From: a virus
Virus record (IMG/VR): IMGVR_UViG_3300043313_000227
Coordinates: 1-36,023 of that record
Direction: 5' to 3' (one strand)
Length of the DNA: 36,023 nucleotides
Shown one piece after another: positions 2,594-20,785 of this stretch (position 1 is its first letter; every line of letters starts with the position of its first letter). The notes under the pieces were generated by a model. It was not told the origin of the DNA. It was given only the letters and a program-made list of their open reading frames with translations, and ran no database searches. Both the position numbers and the translations under genes were made by a program.

Positions 2594-3130
2594 GTGAGCA
2601 CGTTCGATCTCTACCCTGTCGAAAAACATTGGTGGTCGTTCACCGACTACCGCGCCGTCCTCGACACGGTTCGCCGCCTGGGCGCGCGGCGCGTTCTGGA
2701 ATTCGGGCCAGGTTCCTCGACGCTCGCGCTCGTCGAGGGCGGCGCCGATCAGATCGACACGTGCGAGGACGATCCGAAGTGGTACGACGTTCACCGCTCC
2801 CGCGTGGGACGGCAATTCGCGCCGGTCGTTACCGTTCACCGCTACACCTGGGCGGATCCGCTGTCGATCCCTGAGCTCGACGCCAGGCGCTACGATCTCG
2901 CGCTCATCGACGGGCCGCACGATACGCCGCGGCGGCCCGTCGTCCTCGACTACTGCATGGCGCGATGTTCCGCCGTGTTGATCCCGACGGAGGATTACAA
3001 GGTGTCGTCGCCGCCGCTCCGCCCTCACATTCACCGCGTCGCGGCGGAGTACGGCGCCGCCCTCGAGATATGGGACACGGGTCCGACGTCGGGATCGTTC
3101 GCGCTCCTGATGAACGAGTCGCGCTCGTGA
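2594..3130 (+). CDS. Class I SAM-dependent methyltransferase-like protein
   Basis: 178 residues with a Rossmann-type methyltransferase core. Motif I is RVLEFGPGSST (~34-44), the acidic end of strand 2 is DTCEDDPKWY, and motif IV-like LALIDGPHDTPRR lies near 103-115. The pattern GPGSST plus DGP...R is typical of phage and bacterial small-molecule or sugar O-methyltransferases rather than DNA methylases; no DPPY or PC motif is seen. The substrate is unknown. It could act with the glycosyltransferase cassette at 10.7-14.4 kb, but that is inference and the two are 7.5 kb apart. GTG start with GGAGGAAT 13 nt upstream; ends in a GTGA overlap with the next small gene. Confidence 0.7.
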   Translation: MSTFDLYPVEKHWWSFTDYRAVLDTVRRLGARRVLEFGPGSSTLALVEGGADQIDTCEDDPKWYDVHRSRVGRQFAPVVTVHRYTWADPLSIPELDARRYDLALIDGPHDTPRRPVVLDYCMARCSAVLIPTEDYKVSSPPLRPHIHRVAAEYGAALEIWDTGPTSGSFALLMNESRS

Positions 3131-7199: not shown

Positions 7200-7575
7200 T
7201 ATGTCGTTCGCGCTCACGACGCGCCAGGTTCGGCGCCGCGATAAAACCGTGACGCGCCGAAACGGTTGGACGTTCGCGAAAGTCGGCGACGTCGTGCAAC
7301 CCGTGATCAAGTCGCAGGGGATCCCGAAGGGCGGGCACGTCGAGAAGATCGGCGGCCCGATCCGGTTCGTCGAGGTCCGGCGCGAGCGGCTCGACGCGAT
7401 CACGATCGCGGACGTCGCGCGCGAGGGGTTCCCGAACCTCACGGCGCGCGCGTTCATCGCGATCTATCTCGACGCGAACGGCGGCGCGCCGGATCAGGTC
7501 GTCACCCGGATCGCTTTCGAGTATCTCGAGGCGCACGAGATCCCGACGGCGCGCCGACGTCGGGCGGCCGCGTGA
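7192..7575 (+). CDS. ASCH-domain (PUA-like) protein
   Basis: 127 residues matching the ASCH/PUA-like fold seen in many phages: N-terminal SFALTTRQVRRRDKTVTRR, then KVGDVVQPV and KGGHVEKIGGPIRFVEV (beta-barrel strands), then RLDAITIADVAREGFPNLT (~65-83) and a C-terminal helix. ASCH proteins bind RNA or act on modified nucleosides; some homologues hydrolyse N4-acetylcytidine. Activity here is not shown. ATG 7192 overlaps the previous stop; ATG 7201 is an alternative start that would trim three residues. It is followed directly by the terminase small subunit. Confidence 0.72.
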   Translation: MRNMSFALTTRQVRRRDKTVTRRNGWTFAKVGDVVQPVIKSQGIPKGGHVEKIGGPIRFVEVRRERLDAITIADVAREGFPNLTARAFIAIYLDANGGAPDQVVTRIAFEYLEAHEIPTARRRRAAA

Positions 7576-10204: not shown

Positions 10205-10441
10205 TGGAGCGGAGTGGAGCAACCCGGGCGGGATTACAAAAGTGTTCCACGTGGAACACGGGCGCCGACGTCGAGCTCCTCGAAACCGGCTCGCCGCCGC
10301 GCCAGGCGCGCCGCCTGTAGGCGCCAGGACGCCCGCCCGCCCGTCTGGCCCTCCCGCCGACGGCGCCGTTCCTGGGGCACGCCAGGCGCCTCGACCGTTT
10401 CCGCCGGATCGCCCGCCGTGCTATCCTCCCGATCAAACCTC
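10205..10441. other. 237-bp intergenic region between terminase and gpW-like gene
   Basis: No convincing gene. It holds a short direct repeat of GTGGAGC at 10204-10219, the parS palindrome at 10242-10259, several CCAGG/CCTGG words and a weak -10-like TATCCT at 10422-10427 ahead of ATG 10442. The frame starting at 10242 is open but looks like Arg/Pro-rich read-through of GC-rich DNA. Confidence 0.6.
10242..10259. promoter_or_regulatory. parS: parS-like ParB-binding palindrome
   Basis: GTGTTCCACGTGGAACAC is a perfect 18-bp palindrome. Its central 16 bases, TGTTCCACGTGGAACA, match the bacterial chromosomal parS consensus TGTTNCACGTGNAACA at every defined position. Chromosomal-type ParB proteins load onto such sites and spread as CTP-dependent clamps. 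No parA or parB gene is visible in the window, so a host ParB or one encoded elsewhere would be the ligand. Only one copy was found. The DNA match is direct; the function is inference. Confidence 0.8.
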
Positions 10442-10651
10442 ATGCCGTGGACACAGACCGACGCCGACAACCTACGCCGCGCAATCGCCGACGGCCGCGG
10501 CGCCCGGTCGATGTCATTCGGCGATCAGACGGTTGTGTTCAACTCGCTCAAGGAAATGATCGAGCTCCTCGCCATCATGGAAACCGACGCCGCGACGACC
10601 GCGGGCACCCGTCGCGCGTACCGTGTGGCCGTCACGAGCAAAGGCGTTTAG
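10442..10651 (+). CDS. gpW-like head-tail joining protein
   Basis: 69 residues starting MPWTQTDADNLRRAIADGRG, then SMSFGDQTVVFNSLKEMIELL. This is the compact alpha/beta pattern of gpW-family joining proteins: an N-terminal helix, a beta hairpin around a GD turn, and a second helix with SLxEM. In lambda, gpW sits between terminase and portal genes and completes the head before tail attachment. Here it follows terminase but is separated from the portal gene by a 3.7-kb sugar cassette. The frame is open upstream to 10214, but that part crosses the parS region and looks non-coding. Confidence 0.8.
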   Translation: MPWTQTDADNLRRAIADGRGARSMSFGDQTVVFNSLKEMIELLAIMETDAATTAGTRRAYRVAVTSKGV

Positions 10652-10669
10652 AAGGGTTCGCGCCCGCCC

Positions 10670-11404
10670 ATGGCCGCGCCGCTCCTCGCCGCCGTCTACT
10701 TCGGATCCGGCGCCGCGGGCGACGATTTCCGCCGCCTGGCGAACGTCCTCGAGTATTCGGCGCGACGTCACGCGCCGGCCTGGCGCCTCGACGTCCGACA
10801 CGTTCCGCCCGCGACCGGCTACCGCTCAACGCTCGGCGTTCCCGCTCATGAGAACAATTCCGCGAAGCTCGATCACTGGCGCGACGTGATCGCGAGCGCC
10901 GCCGACGGCGACCGCGTGCTCCTCATCGACGCCGACACGATGATCACCGGGTCACTCGATGACGCGTGGGATCGCTCGTTTGATCTCGCGTACACGACCG
11001 CGGCGGATCGGCTCCCGCTGAACGCCGGCGTCGTGTTCGTGAACGTGTCGGATCGCTCGCGCGGGTTCCTCGAGCAATGGGCCGCCGTGAACCGGAGTTT
11101 CCTCGGCGATGCGAACGCGCTCCGGCCCTGGCGCAATCGGTACGCGGGGATCAATCAGGCGGCGCTCGGGTTCATGCTCGAGCGCGCCGGCCACGGATGC
11201 CAGGTCGAGCGGCTCGACGGCGTGATCTGGAATTGCGAGGACTCCAATTGGCGCCGGTTCGATCCCGACGTCACGCGGATCGTTCACGTGAAGTCGGATC
11301 TCCGGCGGGCGATCCTCCGCGGGCACTCGCGGCCGGCGCTCGCGAACATCGTCACCGCCTGGCACGCCGTCGAGGCCAGCGTGAAAGCAGAGGCCAGGAC
11401 ATGA
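10670..11404 (+). CDS. GT-A-like glycosyltransferase
   Basis: 244 residues with features of a nucleotide-sugar-dependent glycosyltransferase: RVLLIDADTMI with the metal-binding DAD at 87-89, and LPLNAGVVFVNVS (~114-126), the order seen in GT8-like and related phage enzymes. A region around GINQAALGFML and a late HVKSDLR motif with His (possible metal ligand) also fit. Sugar donor and acceptor are unknown. First gene of the inserted sugar cassette; overlaps the next gene by ATGA. No membrane span, so it would act in the cytoplasm, for example on virion proteins or sugar intermediates. Confidence 0.68.
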   Translation: MAAPLLAAVYFGSGAAGDDFRRLANVLEYSARRHAPAWRLDVRHVPPATGYRSTLGVPAHENNSAKLDHWRDVIASAADGDRVLLIDADTMITGSLDDAWDRSFDLAYTTAADRLPLNAGVVFVNVSDRSRGFLEQWAAVNRSFLGDANALRPWRNRYAGINQAALGFMLERAGHGCQVERLDGVIWNCEDSNWRRFDPDVTRIVHVKSDLRRAILRGHSRPALANIVTAWHAVEASVKAEART

Positions 11405-13059
11405 CGGCGCCGCTCGTGAGCGTGATTATCCCGACGCACAATCACGCGCACGTGATCGGCGAGGCGATCGCGAGCGTGCTCGAGCAGACCGTTCCCGTCG
11501 AGGTCATCGTGATCGATGACGGCTCGACCGACTCGACGCCCGACGCGCTCGCCGGCTACACGGACACGCGGGTCCGCTCGATCCGTCAGCAGCAAAGCGG
11601 GCCCTCCGCGGCGCGGAACCTCGGGATCGAGATGGCGCGCGGGGCGTTCGTGATGTTCCTCGACGCCGACGACGTCATCGCGCCGGAGAAGCTCGAGACG
11701 CAACTCCGGGCGTTCGATGCGACGGTCGGTTGGGTTCTGTGCGACGTCGAGATCAGGGACGCCGCCAAGCACCGAACGATCAACGCGTCGGCGCAATACC
11801 GATACGACCGGCTCGATCTCGGCGGATGGATCGCGCCGATCCTCCGAAACGGGAACGTGATCCCGATCATGTCGCCGCTCGTGCGACGGTCAACGATCGG
11901 CGCGCTCCGGTTCGATGATGCAAAGGTTCCGGAGGACTGGTATTTCTGGATCGCGATCGCGGAGGCGGCGCGATGCCGGTACGTTCCGGAGGTGCTCGCG
12001 ACCTATCGACACGGGATCACCGGGCGCTCGCGGCTCCCGAAGTCGGCGCGCCTGGCGCATCACGGGATCCGCTCGCCGCTCCGGCTCAATCTCGGATGCG
12101 GCAACCCGGCGGATCGCTCCTGGCACCCGCTCGACGGGTTCGTGAATCTCGACAAGGCGCTCGGTTGGAAGTTTGAACACGGCCTCGGCGAATTCGCGAA
12201 CGGGACCGTCGCGGGGATCACGATCTCGCACGCGCTCATGTACCTCGCGGCGCCCGCCTGGCCGACGTTCGTCGATGAGCTCGCCCGCGTGCTCGAGCCT
12301 GGCGGCGTGGTTCGGATCACGGAGGACGCGACCGACGACCGGCGATCCCGATCGTTCGGCGGATGGAAGGGATCGCAACCGGCGATCACGCTCACGACGC
12401 CGGCGTTCGTCCGCGAGCACCTGGCGGCCGCGGCGTTCGACGTCGCCGATGTCACGCCGGAGGAGACGCGGTTCCGCGACGGCTCGCTCCGGCAACGGTT
12501 CCACGGCGATCCGCCTGATGTCTTTTTCGTCGAGGGCGTCAAGCGGAACGCGATCCTATTCGCGCCGCACGCCGACGACGAGACGCTATTCGCGGCGTTC
12601 ACCCTGCAACGCGCCCGCCCGCGGATCGTGATCTGTTTTCCGTCCGTGCGCGACTACGGCGACACGTACCACCGGGCGGAGGAGTCGCGCCAGGCGGCCG
12701 CCATCCTGGGCGCCGGGCCCGTCGTGCAATGGCAGGGCGGCGATCTCGCGGCGCGGATGCGCGAGCTCGTCGAGGCGCACGGCGCGCCGTCGGAAGTGTG
12801 GGCGCCGTCGGCGAACGCATCGCACGCGGATCACGTGGCCGTCGCCGCCGCGGCGCTCGAGGTGTTCGGCGCCGACGTCCGGAGGTACCAGACGTATCAG
12901 GGCGAGGAGCGGGTCCGCGAGGGCCGCGAGGTTCCGCCGCCGACGCCCGCGGCGATCGAGCGGAAGATCCGCGCGCTCGCGTGCTACACCTCGCAACTCA
13001 CGCACCCGCGGAGCTCGGCGTTCTTTCTCCACGATCAACGGGAGTACGAGGAATGCTAA
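11401..13059 (+). CDS. Fusion: GT2 glycosyltransferase, SAM methyltransferase, PIG-L/LmbE deacetylase
   Basis: 552 residues with three enzyme domains in order. Residues ~1-215: GT2 glycosyltransferase with SVIIPTHNH (7-15), VIVIDDGSTDST (35-46), SGPSAARNLG (66-75) and FLDADD (86-91, DxD = DAD). Residues ~225-380: class I methyltransferase with LNLGCGN (229-235), ITISHALMYL (273-282) and VLEPGGVVRI (297-306). Residues ~383-552: PIG-L/LmbE-type zinc deacetylase with APHADDE (388-394) and SHADHVAV (474-481), the PHxDDE and HxDH pair; Ala replaces the usual Pro. Together they could transfer, methylate and N-deacetylate an N-acetyl sugar. ATG overlaps the previous stop; the next gene starts inside this one. 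Domain identities are strong, joint function is inferred. Confidence 0.82.
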   Translation: MTAPLVSVIIPTHNHAHVIGEAIASVLEQTVPVEVIVIDDGSTDSTPDALAGYTDTRVRSIRQQQSGPSAARNLGIEMARGAFVMFLDADDVIAPEKLETQLRAFDATVGWVLCDVEIRDAAKHRTINASAQYRYDRLDLGGWIAPILRNGNVIPIMSPLVRRSTIGALRFDDAKVPEDWYFWIAIAEAARCRYVPEVLATYRHGITGRSRLPKSARLAHHGIRSPLRLNLGCGNPADRSWHPLDGFVNLDKALGWKFEHGLGEFANGTVAGITISHALMYLAAPAWPTFVDELARVLEPGGVVRITEDATDDRRSRSFGGWKGSQPAITLTTPAFVREHLAAAAFDVADVTPEETRFRDGSLRQRFHGDPPDVFFVEGVKRNAILFAPHADDETLFAAFTLQRARPRIVICFPSVRDYGDTYHRAEESRQAAAILGAGPVVQWQGGDLAARMRELVEAHGAPSEVWAPSANASHADHVAVAAAALEVFGADVRRYQTYQGEERVREGREVPPPTPAAIERKIRALACYTSQLTHPRSSAFFLHDQREYEEC

Positions 13060-13757
13060 CGGTCCTAACGTGGAAGTGGGGCGCGAAGTTTTCCGCCCGT
13101 CACGTGAACACGCTCCGCTCGATGCTCGCGCGCCGGCTCGCGCTCGAGCACCGCGTCGTGTGCGTCACGGATGACGCCGCGGGGATCGACTCCGACGTCG
13201 AGACGATCCCGCTCCCTGGTCGACACTCCGACTCGCCGCGATGCCGTCGCCGTATGCGGGCGTTCGATGCGACGTGGGCCCGCGGGATCGGCGAGCGGAT
13301 CCTCGCGCTCGATCTCGACGTCGTGATCACCGACGATCTCACGCCGGTCGTCGACCGTCCGGATCCGCTCGTGTGCTGGCGCGTCGGGTACGCGGGCGTG
13401 TTCTCCGGCTCCGTGATCCTGATGAACGCCGGCGTCCTCGATCCGCTGTGGCGGGCGTTCGACAAGGATCCCGCCGGCTACGCCAGGCGCGCCTCGCCGC
13501 GCGGCGTCGGCAGCGATCAGGCGATGCTCAATTTCTACTTGGGGCAATCGACGACGAAGCTCCGGCCCGGCGTGTGGACGGAGGCCGACGGGTTCGTGAC
13601 GTTCTTCGGCGCGGGATACGAACGGCTCGAGCGCCGCGGCGTAGGGCCTGGGAATCCGAAGCTCCCGCCAGGCGCGCGGATCGTCGTCCTGGGGAGTGAT
13701 GATCTCTACGTGCTCGAGCAGGGCGAGCACTATCCATGGATCAGCGAATGGCGATAG
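13053..13757 (+). CDS. GT-A-like glycosyltransferase, DLD type
   Basis: 234 residues starting MLTVLTWKWG. The key segment RILALDLDVVITDDL carries DLD (87-89), a metal/nucleotide-sugar DxD, followed by LMNAGVLDPLW and GVGSDQAMLNFYL, a pattern like the first cassette enzyme and other phage proteins annotated as glycosyltransferases. The donor is unknown. ATG lies 7 nt inside the fusion gene's end, so the two are coupled. The true start is clear because TGC TAA of the upstream gene spans it. The next glycosyltransferase starts 22 nt before this gene ends. Confidence 0.68.
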   Translation: MLTVLTWKWGAKFSARHVNTLRSMLARRLALEHRVVCVTDDAAGIDSDVETIPLPGRHSDSPRCRRRMRAFDATWARGIGERILALDLDVVITDDLTPVVDRPDPLVCWRVGYAGVFSGSVILMNAGVLDPLWRAFDKDPAGYARRASPRGVGSDQAMLNFYLGQSTTKLRPGVWTEADGFVTFFGAGYERLERRGVGPGNPKLPPGARIVVLGSDDLYVLEQGEHYPWISEWR

Positions 13758-14374
13758 AGCTCGTGACGTTCGTTCCGTTCGATCTCGAGGCAAACCTGGG
13801 GCGCGCCTACAATCACGCGATGGCGCTCCTCCCGCCGGACGCCTGGGCGGTTCTGTTCGATCACGACGCGATGCCGACGACGCGGGAATGGTACCGGCAG
13901 ATCACCGAAGTGATCGAGCACCGGCCCGACGTCGGACTACTCACGGCGACGACGAACCGGATCGCGTCGCCGTGGCAGCGCGCCGCGGAGTCCGATCTGA
14001 ACAATCACGACATGGCGTATCACCGGAAGCTCGGCGCCGCGCGCCTCGAGCGCCGGACGCTCCTCGACGTCACCGACACGAAGGGCCTCGGCGGCGTGCT
14101 CATGGTGCTGTCGAGGCGAACCTGGGAACGCGTCGGCGGGTTCGTCGACGGAATGCTCTGTGTCGATCACATGATGCACTTCGCCGTCGCGCGCGCAGGC
14201 CTCAGGGTCTACGTCGTCGATAGTCTGTACGTCTACCATTGGCGCCGCGCACACGGCGACGAACTCCCGGCCAGCGTGCCAAAGGCCAAACGCTGTCCAT
14301 GTCGAGGGCCTGAACCGACGCCGACGCGGCGGATCCCGATCGTTCCGGAAGGGGCAACGAATGAGACTCGATAG
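13736..14374 (+). CDS. GT2-like glycosyltransferase, DHD type
   Basis: 212 residues. AYNHAMALLPPDAWAVLFDHD (split around residue 36) ends in the DxD-like DHD (42-44) followed by AMPTT, and GGVLMVLSRRTWERVGGF (~118-135) matches the acceptor-side segment of GT2 enzymes that process secreted or surface sugars. The C-terminal ~35 residues after VYHWRRAHGDELP are a basic, Pro-rich tail. Two starts are possible: ATG 13736 or ATG 13748, four codons in. The gene overlaps both neighbours and is the last of the cassette, running directly into the portal gene. Confidence 0.68.
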   Translation: MDQRMAIELVTFVPFDLEANLGRAYNHAMALLPPDAWAVLFDHDAMPTTREWYRQITEVIEHRPDVGLLTATTNRIASPWQRAAESDLNNHDMAYHRKLGAARLERRTLLDVTDTKGLGGVLMVLSRRTWERVGGFVDGMLCVDHMMHFAVARAGLRVYVVDSLYVYHWRRAHGDELPASVPKAKRCPCRGPEPTPTRRIPIVPEGATNETR

Positions 14375-15950
14375 AATCGATCCCGAACCCGCTCGGCGGC
14401 GCCGCACGTTCGGCGATCACCTCGACACGATCACCGCGCCGATCGCGCCGCGATGGACGCTGAACCGGCAGCGCGCCCGCTACGCCGGCGAGATTCTCAA
14501 GCGACATTACGAGGGCGCCGCGACGACGGCGCGGACGCAGAATTGGCGCAAGCCTGGGACCGATGCGAACGCCGCCGTCGGTCCCGCGGCGGCGAACCTC
14601 CGGAACGCCGTCCGCGATCTCATTCGCAACAATCCGTACGCCGCCGCGTCGCTCGCGTCGATCGTGAACGAGGCGATCGGTTGGGGGATCGTGGCGGAGT
14701 CGCCGAACGCCCGGGCGATGAAACTCTGGCGGAAGTGGGCGGAGTCGAAGGCGTGCGACGCGAACGGCGTTCACGATATCTACGGACTGCAAAAGCTCGT
14801 CCTCCGTGCGACCGCGCAGGATGGCGAGGTGCTCGTTCGTCGGCGGTTCCGGCTCCCGTCCGACGGACTCCCGATCCCCGTGCAATTGCAAGTCCTCGAG
14901 ATCGATCACCTCGACACGACGAAGGATCAGATCACGACGCCGAACGGCGGGCAGATCGTTCAAGGGATCGAGTTTTCCCCGATTGGCGAGCGGGTCGCGT
15001 ACTGGCTGTTCAAGGAACACCCGGGCAGCATCCGCGGATCGTACGCGCCGTCGGTTCGGATCCCGGCGGAGGGCGTGCGTCACATATTCCGCGGCGAACG
15101 TCCCGGCCAGGTGCGCGCCGTCTCGTGGTACGCGCCCTCGCTCCTCGCGTGGAAGGATCTCGACGACTACGACGACGCGACGCTCGTGAAGCAAAAGATC
15201 GCGGCGTGCCTGGCCGTGTTCGTGCGCGACGATCTCGACGGCGGCGGCGCGCCGCTCGGCGAACCGAACGACGTCCCGACGCCGGCGATCGACACGCTCA
15301 CGCCCGGAATGGTGCAGAACCTCCCGGCCGGTCGTCAGATCTCCGTCGTCGAGCCTCCGCGCGTGAACGATTTCGGCGAGTACATGGATCGAAAGCTCCG
15401 CGGACTCGCGAGCGGGCTCCGGGTTCTGTTCTCGAGCATGACCGGGGATTTCCGCGATCTCTCGTTCTCGGCCGCCAGGATGGAGCGGATCGCGCATCAA
15501 CCCGACGTCGACGACAACCGATGGCGTCTCCTGATCCCTGGGTTCTGTGATCCGGCCTGGGAGTGGGCGATGACGGCGGCCGCGATCGCCGGACTCCTCC
15601 CGTCGGCGGAGGTTCCCGACGTCGAGTGGACGCCGCCGCCGCTCGCGTTCATCGATCCGGCGAGCGAGGGCCTCGCGATCCTCCGGAACGTGCGCGCAGG
15701 GATCACGACGATGCAGGAGGAGCTCCGCGCCCGCGGATTGAACCCGGTCAAAGTGATCGGGGAAATGAAGGCGTGGAACGCGCTCCTCGACAAGGCCGGC
15801 GTCGTGCTCGACAGCGATCCGCGTCGGATGACTCAGGCGGGCATGGCGCAAAGCGCGATCACGCCCGCGGCGCCGGCTACGCCCGCGGCGCCCGCGGAAC
15901 CGGCGGCGCCGTCGGAACCCGCGGCGGAGGGCGACGGGGAGGACACGTAA
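14361..15950 (+). CDS. Portal protein, lambda gpB family
   Basis: 529 residues, near the usual ~530 of lambda-type portals. The N-terminal ~60 residues are basic, then NLRNAVRDLIRNNPYAAASL (split around ~80) and GWGIVAESPN are characteristic, followed by LQVLEIDHLD, ISVVEPPRVNDFGEYMDRK and FRDLSFSAARM. The C-terminus is Ala/Pro-rich. Twelve copies would form the packaging vertex. The gene overlaps the last glycosyltransferase by 14 nt, so the sugar cassette and portal share an operon. Confidence 0.93.
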   Translation: MRLDRIDPEPARRRRTFGDHLDTITAPIAPRWTLNRQRARYAGEILKRHYEGAATTARTQNWRKPGTDANAAVGPAAANLRNAVRDLIRNNPYAAASLASIVNEAIGWGIVAESPNARAMKLWRKWAESKACDANGVHDIYGLQKLVLRATAQDGEVLVRRRFRLPSDGLPIPVQLQVLEIDHLDTTKDQITTPNGGQIVQGIEFSPIGERVAYWLFKEHPGSIRGSYAPSVRIPAEGVRHIFRGERPGQVRAVSWYAPSLLAWKDLDDYDDATLVKQKIAACLAVFVRDDLDGGGAPLGEPNDVPTPAIDTLTPGMVQNLPAGRQISVVEPPRVNDFGEYMDRKLRGLASGLRVLFSSMTGDFRDLSFSAARMERIAHQPDVDDNRWRLLIPGFCDPAWEWAMTAAAIAGLLPSAEVPDVEWTPPPLAFIDPASEGLAILRNVRAGITTMQEELRARGLNPVKVIGEMKAWNALLDKAGVVLDSDPRRMTQAGMAQSAITPAAPATPAAPAEPAAPSEPAAEGDGEDT

Positions 15951-16257: not shown

Positions 16258-18258
16258 ATGTCGCGAGCGGCAACCGGCCAAACGATCGACGTTCCTCCGC
16301 TCTCACTCCTCGCCCGTGCCAACGTTGAAACCGTGAACGAGGCGGATCGCTCCGTCGAGCTCACGTTCTCGACCGGCGCGCCAGTCGAGCGGTACGACTG
16401 GATGAAGGACACGCGGTATCTCGAGGCGCTCGAGATCTCGAAAAAGGCGATCCGCGTCGGACGCCTGAACACGGCGCCGCTCCTCGACGCGCATTCCGCG
16501 TGGTCGATCACCGATCAGATCGGGACGGTCGTCGCCGGTTCATTCCGGATCGACGGCACCGACGCGATCGTTCGCGTCCGGTTCTCCGCACGCGAGGCCG
16601 TCGCGGGGATCTGGCAGGACGTGAAGGATCGGATCATCCAGAACGTCAGCGTCGGATATCGCGTTCACAAATTCGAGGAGGACGCGACCGGCGCGATCCC
16701 CGTTCGTACGGCCGTCGATTGGGAACCGTACGAGGTGTCAATGGTCCCGATGCCGGCCGACGTCGGCGCTCGCGTTCGCAATCACGAGATCGCGACGAAT
16801 TCCTGTCTCATCATCCGCAAGGAGAGTACCGTGGCTGATCCCGCTCGCCCGTCCACCGTCGCCGAAGATCCCGCCGTCGTCGCGCTCCGTCTCACCGACG
16901 GCGCGCCTGGCGCCCGGCCCGCAGCGGCGCCCGCGGCGGAACCGACGGCCGCCGACGCCGCTCGCGCAAACGAAACCGCTCGCGTCCAGGGCATCATCAC
17001 CGCCGCCCGCGGCGGGCGGATGCCGGCCACGTTCGCCGACGATCACATCGCGCGCGGGACGGCGCTCGAGGAGGTATCGCGGCTCGTGTTCGTCGAGCTC
17101 CAGGCGCGGAACGAGCAGACGCGCGGCCCGCAGCCCGGGCCCTCGATCGCGCTCGGCGAGGATCCGCTCGTTCACGTGCGAACGTCGATCATGGGCGCCC
17201 TCTGTCACCGCGTCGCGCCGTCGTTCTTCAAGCTCGAGGATCAGCACCGGCCGTACCGCGGCCTCACGCTCCTCGACACGGCGCGGGCGTATCTCCACGC
17301 CGCCGGCGTGCGAACGTCCGGCATGTCGAAGATGGAGCTCGCCGCGGCGGCGCTCGGACTCGATCAGCGTGGCGGCCACGGCTACCACACGACGAGCGAT
17401 TTCGCGTTCCTCCTGGCCGACGTCGCGAACAAGACGATCCGCCGTGCCTACGACGAGGCGCCGCAGACGTTCAAGACGATCGCGCGCCAGGTCAACCTCC
17501 CCGATTTCAAGCCGGTCTACCGTACGCAGATGGGAGACGCGCCGGCGTTGCTCGAGGTCAAGGAACACGGCGAATTCAAGCGGGGCACCATCGGCGAGGC
17601 GCGCGAGCAGTTTCAACTCGTGACGTACGGCCGCGTGTTCGCCATCACGCGCAAGGCGCTCGTGAACGACGACGCCGACGCGTTCGGGCGCGTCCCGACG
17701 ATGTTCGGCCGTGCGGCGCGGACGCTCGAAAGCGATCTCGTGTGGGATCAGATCACGAGCAATCCCGTGATGGGCGACGGAAACGCCCTGTTCTCGGCGG
17801 CTCACCTGAACCTCGACGCGACCGGCGCGGAGATCGACGTCGATTCGCTCGGCGATGCGCGCGCGGCGATGCGCCAGCAGGTTTCGCTCGACGGCGAGCG
17901 GCTGAACATCGCGCCGAAGTACCTCCTCGTCGGGACCGCGCTCGAAACCCGCGGCGACTCGATCGTCGTCCCGATCACGCCGAACACGTTCACCCAGGTG
18001 AACCCGTTCTCCGGCAAGCTCACGGTCGTCGCGGAACCGCGGCTCGATGAGGAACCGCTCGCGTGGTACCTCGCCGCGGATCCCGCGCAGATCGACATCA
18101 TCGAGTACGGGTTCCTCGAGGGCGAGGAAGGGCCGCAGATCGAGACGCGGATCGGGTTCGACGTCGACGGCATCGAGATCAAGTGTCGCGAGGATTTCGC
18201 GGCCAAGGTGCTCGACTGGCGCGGACTCTACAAGAACGTCGGTCACGAACACTCGTAG
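16258..18258 (+). CDS. Prohead protease/major capsid protein fusion
   Basis: 666 residues. The N-terminal ~180 match HK97-type prohead proteases: ELTFSTGAPVERYDW, LLDAHSAWS (catalytic His 79), IIQNVSVGY (nucleophile Ser 131) and DWEPYEVSMVPMPAD. Residues ~190-260 are a charged, Ala-rich linker that could act as scaffold. From ~290 on is a Mu gpT-like major head subunit, with TSDFAFLLADVANKTIRRAY, FKRGTIGEAREQFQL, RVFAITRKALVNDD and a C-terminal FDVDGIEIKCREDFAAK. Fusions of this sort are known; the protease would free itself and trim scaffold. The ATG at 16258 lacks a clear ribosome site, surprising for the most abundant protein. Confidence 0.92.
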   Translation: MSRAATGQTIDVPPLSLLARANVETVNEADRSVELTFSTGAPVERYDWMKDTRYLEALEISKKAIRVGRLNTAPLLDAHSAWSITDQIGTVVAGSFRIDGTDAIVRVRFSAREAVAGIWQDVKDRIIQNVSVGYRVHKFEEDATGAIPVRTAVDWEPYEVSMVPMPADVGARVRNHEIATNSCLIIRKESTVADPARPSTVAEDPAVVALRLTDGAPGARPAAAPAAEPTAADAARANETARVQGIITAARGGRMPATFADDHIARGTALEEVSRLVFVELQARNEQTRGPQPGPSIALGEDPLVHVRTSIMGALCHRVAPSFFKLEDQHRPYRGLTLLDTARAYLHAAGVRTSGMSKMELAAAALGLDQRGGHGYHTTSDFAFLLADVANKTIRRAYDEAPQTFKTIARQVNLPDFKPVYRTQMGDAPALLEVKEHGEFKRGTIGEAREQFQLVTYGRVFAITRKALVNDDADAFGRVPTMFGRAARTLESDLVWDQITSNPVMGDGNALFSAAHLNLDATGAEIDVDSLGDARAAMRQQVSLDGERLNIAPKYLLVGTALETRGDSIVVPITPNTFTQVNPFSGKLTVVAEPRLDEEPLAWYLAADPAQIDIIEYGFLEGEEGPQIETRIGFDVDGIEIKCREDFAAKVLDWRGLYKNVGHEHS

Positions 18259-18336: not shown

Positions 18337-18693
18337 ATGAAGAATTTCGTTCAGCCCGGGGAGTCGGTCGAATTCACGGCGCCGTCGGGCGGCGTGACGT
18401 CCGGCGTCGGCGTCCAGATCGGTCAGTTTTTCTGTATCGCGACGATCACGGCCGCGGTCGGCGTGCGGTTCAATGGCTTGTGCGAGGGCGTCGTGACGCA
18501 CGCCAAGCCGGGATCGCAGGCCTGGGCGGAGGGCGCCGCGATCTTCTGGGATGAGGGCGCGAAGCTCATGACGACCGTGTCGTCGGGCAACCTCCAGATC
18601 GGCGTCGCCACGGTCGCCGTCGGCGCGGGCGCCGGCGAAACGACCGGAACCGTTCGGCTCGACGGCGTCGGCCGCGCGCACGACGGAACGTAA
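18337..18693 (+). CDS. DUF2190 capsid decoration protein
   Basis: 118 residues beginning MKNFVQPGESVEFTAPSGGV, then SGVGVQIGQFF and AWAEGAAIFWDEGAKLMTT. This is the small beta-rich DUF2190 family, found next to capsid genes and thought to be a head decoration (cement) protein analogous to lambda gpD. A GGAGATCAGG ribosome-site region lies 7-16 nt upstream of ATG. It is separated from the capsid gene by the terminator-like hairpin. Confidence 0.85.
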   Translation: MKNFVQPGESVEFTAPSGGVTSGVGVQIGQFFCIATITAAVGVRFNGLCEGVVTHAKPGSQAWAEGAAIFWDEGAKLMTTVSSGNLQIGVATVAVGAGAGETTGTVRLDGVGRAHDGT

Positions 18694-20176: not shown

Positions 20177-20785
20177 ATGAGGAATTCCGCACCGCTCGAG
20201 GTAATCGCCGCGCCGTTTACGATGTACGTCGCGCCCGTCGGGACCGCGTTCCCCGAAGTCGATCAGGATCCGGACTCGAGCGACTGGACACTGGTCGGAT
20301 CGGCGGGTCCGCTGAACTACGACGAAGCGGGGATCAACGTCGAGCACTCGCAGTCGATGGCGTTCTGGCGCTCGCTCGGCGATGCCGGATCCCGTAAGGT
20401 GTTCCGGTCGAGCGAGGATCTCAAGATGGGTCTTTTGCTCGTCGACGTCACGCCCGAACAGTACTCGTTCGCGCTCAACGGGAACACCGTCACGACGACG
20501 CCCGCCGGCGCCGGCGTCCCTGGCACGAAGAAGATCGGACTCTCGCGCGGGTTCGTCGTCGACACCCGCGCCGTGCTCCTCCGGGGCCCGTCGCCGGAGA
20601 TGGAGGACGGCGTCATGCAGTACGAGTGTCCGCGCGCCGCGCAGACCGGCGAACCGAAGCCGGTTTACACGAAGGACAAGCCGGCGATGCTCGCGATCGA
20701 GTGGACCGCGCTCGTCGATCCCGGCGCCGCGGATCCGTCGGAGTACTTCGGTCGGATCGTCGTGCAGACCGCCGACGCGTCGTAA
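20177..20785 (+). CDS. Major tail (tube) protein
   Basis: 202 residues. Beta-rich with FTMYVAPVGTAFPEV, WTLVGSAGPLNYDEAGINVE (~42-61) and LKMGLLLVDVTPEQYSFAL, the pattern of siphophage tail tube proteins. It is preceded by GGAGGAG at 20162-20168, 8 nt from ATG, a strong ribosome site expected for an abundant protein. It is followed by the tail chaperones and tape measure gene in the standard order. Confidence 0.78.
   Translation: MRNSAPLEVIAAPFTMYVAPVGTAFPEVDQDPDSSDWTLVGSAGPLNYDEAGINVEHSQSMAFWRSLGDAGSRKVFRSSEDLKMGLLLVDVTPEQYSFALNGNTVTTTPAGAGVPGTKKIGLSRGFVVDTRAVLLRGPSPEMEDGVMQYECPRAAQTGEPKPVYTKDKPAMLAIEWTALVDPGAADPSEYFGRIVVQTADAS

Follow-up and report, generated by a model that had tools for sequence, protein, structure and literature searches.

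The window, which is the whole stretch of DNA analysed here, is the 36,023-base IMG/VR virus record IMGVR_UViG_3300043313_000227, from a soil bacteriophage. It shows a cassette of four sugar-related genes between a gene for a gpW-like head-tail adaptor and a portal gene, named here GT_A, fus_B, GT_C and GT_D (Table 1). Two records from two metagenomes, L003 and L009, are identical to the window across nearly all matched genes. GT_A starts 18 bp past the end of gpW, and all the following genes overlap: GT_A and fus_B by 4 bp (ATGA), fus_B and GT_C by 7 bp, GT_C and GT_D by 10 or 22 bp, according to the GT_D start, and GT_D and the portal gene by 14 bp. An earlier note on this DNA, made from the letters alone, had described four sugar ORFs coupled by overlaps into the portal gene; the ORF positions bear out this description, and both flanks were confirmed by profile matches, phrog_2545 upstream and a lambda-family portal with 314 bits downstream. 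Chance ORFs were ruled out as an explanation of the cassette by the conservation of its families and by purifying selection. Upstream of the cassette, an "ASCH" label considered for window 7201-7575 found no support in Pfam.

Table 1. Features of the window at and around the sugar cassette.
Feature	Position	Strand	Basis
MT24, Methyltransf_24-like, fifth member of the set	2594..3130	+	PF13578 weak; gene order in relatives
gpW-like head-tail adaptor at the left border	10442..10651	+	phrog_2545 head-tail adaptor Ad1, E 5.8e-12
Inserted cassette interval	10652..14360	+	gap measurements in 52 loci
GT_A, GT8-like glycosyltransferase	10670..11404	+	AlphaFold/Foldseek, DxD motif
fus_B, GT2 + methyltransferase + PIG-L fusion	11401..13059	+	Pfam
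GT_C, glycosyltransferase	13053..13757	+	phrog_1962; best start ATG 13053
GT_D, glycosyltransferase	13748..14374	+	phrog_14179; alternative ATG 13736
Portal protein, lambda-family, right border	14361..15950	+	PF05136, 314 bits; ATG 14361
Protease-major capsid fusion protein, candidate acceptor	16258..18258	+	phrog_4523 major head and protease protein, E 7e-215
Major tail (tube) protein, candidate acceptor	20177..20785	+	phrog_117; PF25681 weak

Per-gene HMMs were used to delimit related loci, 52 of which span TerL, gpW, portal and the major capsid protein (MCP). The distance between gpW and portal is 6-36 bp in 21 of the 23 cassette-free relatives of the window type and about 0.2 kb in the other two, whereas it reaches 2.8-7.0 kb in carriers with a filled slot. 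The cassette is therefore a true insertion, as the earlier note had proposed, and an empty site is present in relatives. In close relatives the slot holds other sugar sets: L115, L246 and L241, whose MCP is 81-84% identical to that of the window, show GT_A accompanied by a methyltransferase, an unnamed ORF and a GT4-type glycosyltransferase, while L252 and L152 contain longer sets with additional NAD-dependent epimerase, GT-D, GT2 and FkbM genes. The epimerase-bearing sets are consistent with glycan assembly. In the gap between terminase and gpW, the window also shows a perfect parS-type palindrome, TGTTCCACGTGGAACA (10243-10258), where none is expected by chance. This palindrome is found at the same place in L004, L005, L006-L008, L115 and L241, and with one mismatch in L246, while its flanks diverge. 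No ParB_N gene was found in G000-G003, G005 and G010, and the palindrome is possibly a binding site for a host ParB.

In Pfam, GT_A only shows sub-threshold similarity to the GT8/Nucleotid_trans families (PF01501, 14.5 bits against a cut-off of 24.3). Its AlphaFold model is confident (pLDDT 95.2), and the top PDB matches with Foldseek were glycogenin, Skp1 galactosyltransferase, GlyE and the PBCV-1 capsid glycosyltransferase, which places the modelled fold near glycogenin-type GT8 enzymes. The last of these (PDB 2p73) is a capsid-glycosylation enzyme with a GT-A fold near that of GT_A (TM 0.58-0.67); however, PBCV-1 is a eukaryotic algal virus, the sequence identity is 13-14%, and the match is not a family assignment. 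In general, fold matches of the cassette enzymes were moderate (TM about 0.5-0.65) and are little informative on substrate. The DxD motif of GT_A (D87, D89) does not vary across 42 sequences. Of the 54 independent GT_A-bearing locus groups, which include loci retrieved by glycosyltransferase queries, 44, spread over two head types, also contain the portal gene.

The product of fus_B has three domains: a GT2 glycosyltransferase (residues 1-215), a SAM methyltransferase (222-380) and a PIG-L/LmbE deacetylase (381-552). The GT2 domain scores 112.9 bits with Glycos_transf_2 (PF00535), has an invariant DxD (D88/D90) and matches GtrB-like PHROGs. The deacetylase domain scores 39.7 bits with PF02585, above the cut-off of 28.2, and all residues of its metal-site motifs HxDDE (H390, D392, D393, E394) and HxDH (H475, D477, H478) are invariant. 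The central domain is only weakly matched by Methyltransf_11 (18.8-18.9 bits against a cut-off of 21.2), although its LNLGCG motif is conserved, and its assignment is thus probable rather than formal. Searching IMG/VR with fus_B gave 12 carrier loci and, once alignments were added, 13 deduplicated groups. In these 13 independent phage groups, which belong to two distinct head-gene types, fus_B is fused at full length in 11 and split in two (G010 and G011), where PIG-L is an ORF of its own with a 4 bp overlap; both fused and split forms therefore exist. No full-length fus_B was found in INPHARED phages or in 84,980 genomes, and the GT2-methyltransferase-PIG-L fusion is new as far as these searches reach.

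GT_C matches the glycosyltransferase family phrog_1962 (6.7e-9) and is related to GT_A at the profile level, and GT_D matches phrog_14179, also a glycosyltransferase (1.2e-17). The AlphaFold model of GT_D (pLDDT 93.6) is nearest to polypeptide GalNAc-transferase T2 (ppGalNAc-T2), and its predicted fold is thus nearest to the GT27 polypeptide GalNAc-transferases. Together with the GT2 match of fus_B and the modelled GT-A fold of GT_A, these PHROG matches agree with the glycosyltransferase identities given in the earlier note. That note had counted four genes, all of which are present, but the set is larger: in six other groups (L010, L107, L132, L140, L191 and L271) MT24 lies between fus_B and GT_C, so it belongs to the cassette, while in the clade of the window it is displaced upstream of the terminase. 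The four-gene unit was therefore dropped as the complete set and MT24 was added as a fifth member. In L162/G010 and L014/G011, the place that MT24 has elsewhere, between the PIG-L ORF and GT_C, shows a conserved protein of 99-105 amino acids. A GT_C homologue with 32% identity was also found immediately upstream of a portal-like gene in L088 (620-1249), an earlier deposited phage fragment (EBPR siphovirus 3).

GT_A is present in 31 of the 95 loci with both TerL and portal, and in 11 of the 34 complete loci when only the MCP-query set is considered. Regarding the five cassette families, 64 of the 95 loci have none, 14 have GT_A without the other four, five have GT_A and GT_D, one has GT_A and GT_C, three have all but MT24 and eight have all five; these frequencies are not population estimates because many loci were retrieved by cassette-gene queries, and the loci with GT_A alone are so only in relation to the five families, since several of them carry other sugar genes. 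In L108, one of the three loci with all but MT24, this gene is on another piece of the contig, L110. None of the 95 loci shows MT24, the fus_B methyltransferase, GT_C or GT_D in the absence of GT_A, which is thus the constant gene of the locus. The cassette is accessory, since many relatives live without it.

Close relatives, with about 70-90% amino-acid identity in most genes, show the same gene order. In distant phages, TerL is 31-44% identical, yet fus_B, GT_C and GT_D retain about 50-60% identity, and the genes have a different arrangement around TerL, gpW and portal. The set occurs with two head types: that of the window, with a protease-MCP fusion, and a lambda-like type with an S49 protease, a decoration protein and a separate MCP. 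In quick trees, a single change of head type suffices for the portal, whereas the three copies of each fus_B domain from type-2 heads are scattered (three changes each, with moderate support). On the GT_A tree, head type requires four changes when only rows with a known head are used, and in the grouped table H1 shows five changes against a shuffled mean of 14.5. The trees are consistent with a resident GT_A and tailoring genes that may travel between phages. Most cassette gene pairs show dN/dS values of 0.19-0.45, with one GT_A pair up to 0.62, while structural genes range between 0.10 and 0.31; judged by these ratios, the cassette genes are under purifying selection. The earlier note had held that absence of the genes from relatives, with no signs of selection, would speak against a sugar system. 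Many relatives do lack them, but carriers show selection, with dN/dS mostly of 0.2-0.45 and invariant DxD and HxDD/HxDH motifs wherever the genes are present.

These data bear on the possibility that the genes are mobile "morons" with no role in the particle, kept at the slot only because insertions are tolerated there. The cassette is absent from many relatives and in some of them (L130, L137, L149, L151, L247 and L258) the same head-operon region accepts long non-sugar inserts, which favours this reading; however, GT_A lies near portal or MCP in two head types and no other cassette gene occurs without it, and the selection estimated above also argues against genes that are merely tolerated, so that we consider this explanation improbable. 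The non-sugar inserts are located in the terminase-gpW, gpW-portal, portal-MCP or portal-protease gaps and, by eye, some resemble surface or fibre proteins.

A different target, the host surface, was also considered. In a host cell that is infected or lysogenised, the enzymes could alter LPS, capsule or teichoic glycans, which would block superinfection or change adsorption. Bacterial loci for surface polysaccharides commonly contain GT2, methyltransferase, epimerase and PIG-L genes, the GT2 domain of fus_B scores to the TuaG, WcaA and EpsE families and to chondroitin synthase, and two bacterial genomes, L055 and L057, have separate GT2 and PIG-L genes close together. The GtrABC seroconversion modules of temperate phages likewise place sugar-transfer genes on a phage; nevertheless, the set of the window is in the head operon, where the overlaps embed it among late genes, no gtrABC-like arrangement was seen, and no transmembrane segment was predicted in the five cassette proteins (highest 19-residue hydropathy of 1.54), in contrast with the membrane flippase and transferase components of GtrABC. 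Furthermore, about 1000 bacterial genomes gave three matches to GT_A, none of them full-length, and the strongest sits within a non-phage cluster. We therefore regard a host-surface role as unlikely.

Modification of phage DNA by glycosyltransferases is well established, and the cassette adjoins the terminase, so the glycosyltransferases, methyltransferase and deacetylase might decorate a modified pyrimidine of the phage DNA at packaging. Outside the window, a C5-cytosine methyltransferase is encoded in three cassette-bearing records (G001:6556-8502, G002:29004-31046 and G003:9615-10301), but it was not found in the carriers G005, G010 and G011, whose records may be incomplete. A thymidylate-synthase-type hydroxymethylase (PF00303) was absent from eight records, which may be fragments, with a positive control, and the search for TET/JBP (PF12851) gave no match, the control for this search being silent too. 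On the whole, the TET, C5-methyltransferase and thymidylate synthase searches gave no support to DNA modification, and the alternative sets include NDP-sugar epimerases, which also speaks against it; this explanation is very improbable.

The closest known arrangement is that of the cluster O mycobacteriophages (Corndog/Firecracker), where an O-methyltransferase and three glycosyltransferase genes lie between the portal and the capsid protease and are presumed to modify the capsid (PMC4351075; JN698993, KF024730). Glycosylation of capsid or tail tube in the mycobacteriophages Corndog, Che8 and Myrna is reported in PMC12363180, which cites Freeman 2023. Virion glycosylation by phage-encoded glycosyltransferases, including some from the head operon, is already known in mycobacteriophages. 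As in the window, the Corndog-type locus has a methyltransferase and several small glycosyltransferases inside the head operon beside the portal, but its slot is portal-protease instead of gpW-portal, and it has no annotated deacetylase or GT2-methyltransferase-PIG-L fusion such as fus_B. Comparison of GT_A, GT_C, GT_D and MT24 profiles with Firecracker gp33-gp36 by hhalign, with single-sequence targets, detected no homology (probabilities <5% for printed pairs and <20% for all others). GT_D was rejected as a homologue of gp35, with which it shares 28% identity over 147 columns, given the negligible probability. Tetraselmis viridis virus S20 (NC_020840) has about eight genes, including glycosyltransferases and a methyltransferase, that lie between head genes and the head-closure gene; its TVGG_00041 is a GT_C homologue with 35-40% identity, but no match to fus_B, GT_A or GT_D was found and its head genes did not match those of the window.

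The earlier note had suggested a new virion or host-surface sugar system. Good support for a phage sugar system built into the head operon comes from the empty sites, the recurrence in two head types, the alternative sets at one slot, purifying selection and the positional precedent of cluster O; between the two targets, gene position and the lack of predicted membrane segments in the five proteins favour the virion. Given the position of the genes, the soluble enzymes, the sugar-nucleotide epimerases of sister loci and the precedent of Corndog, cytosolic glycosylation of a virion protein by this phage-encoded system is the best explanation, to which we give a probability of about 60%, and the modelled folds are nearest to those of protein- or capsid-glycan enzymes, such as the PBCV-1 capsid glycosyltransferase and ppGalNAc-T2. 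In the mechanism that we infer, with respect to acceptor, order of steps, sugars and biological benefit, the soluble GT8-like GT_A would act in the cytoplasm while particles assemble and would transfer a core sugar to a virion protein of the head or the tail tube. Host nucleotide sugars would serve as donors. The GT2 domain of fus_B would attach a further sugar, its PIG-L domain would remove the acetyl group of an N-acetylated sugar, leaving a free amine, and its central domain would methylate the glycan, while GT_C and GT_D would extend it and MT24 would add methylation. Since phages swap the tailoring genes around GT_A at one slot, the glycan would vary in the manner of a serotype.

The tail tube was considered as acceptor, as its family is found with GT_A in both head types (raw counts of 19 of 21 loci with GT_A and three of 45 without it). 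However, a tree-based control gave five independent contrasts and two to three against zero independent pairs (p 0.25), and distance correlations favour linkage of GT_A to the portal, not to the tail tube; the tail tube is therefore only a candidate acceptor, the association not being significant over independent pairs. Connector genes adjoining the tail-tube gene of the window (20177-20785) show a similar association with GT_A in both head types, likewise not significant over independent pairs. A decoration protein of the window (18337-18693) is a further candidate.

Within virion glycosylation, we tentatively propose that the locus could be a virion "serotype locus", in which the head operon contains one constant core glycosyltransferase and interchangeable sugar-assembly genes that spread between phages of different head type. 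In the window, its product would be a methylated glycan with an amine, made through the fus_B fusion, which our searches found in phages only. This constant-plus-variable organisation, spread over two head types, is new as far as the searches reach, and its combination of one constant enzyme and swappable tailoring genes is much like that of bacterial capsule loci. The locus suggests that glycosylation of phage particles may be widespread among uncultured soil phages; it gives concrete predictions on the first-acting enzyme, and it offers natural sets of phages that share their head genes but would have the glycan, lack it or have a different one.
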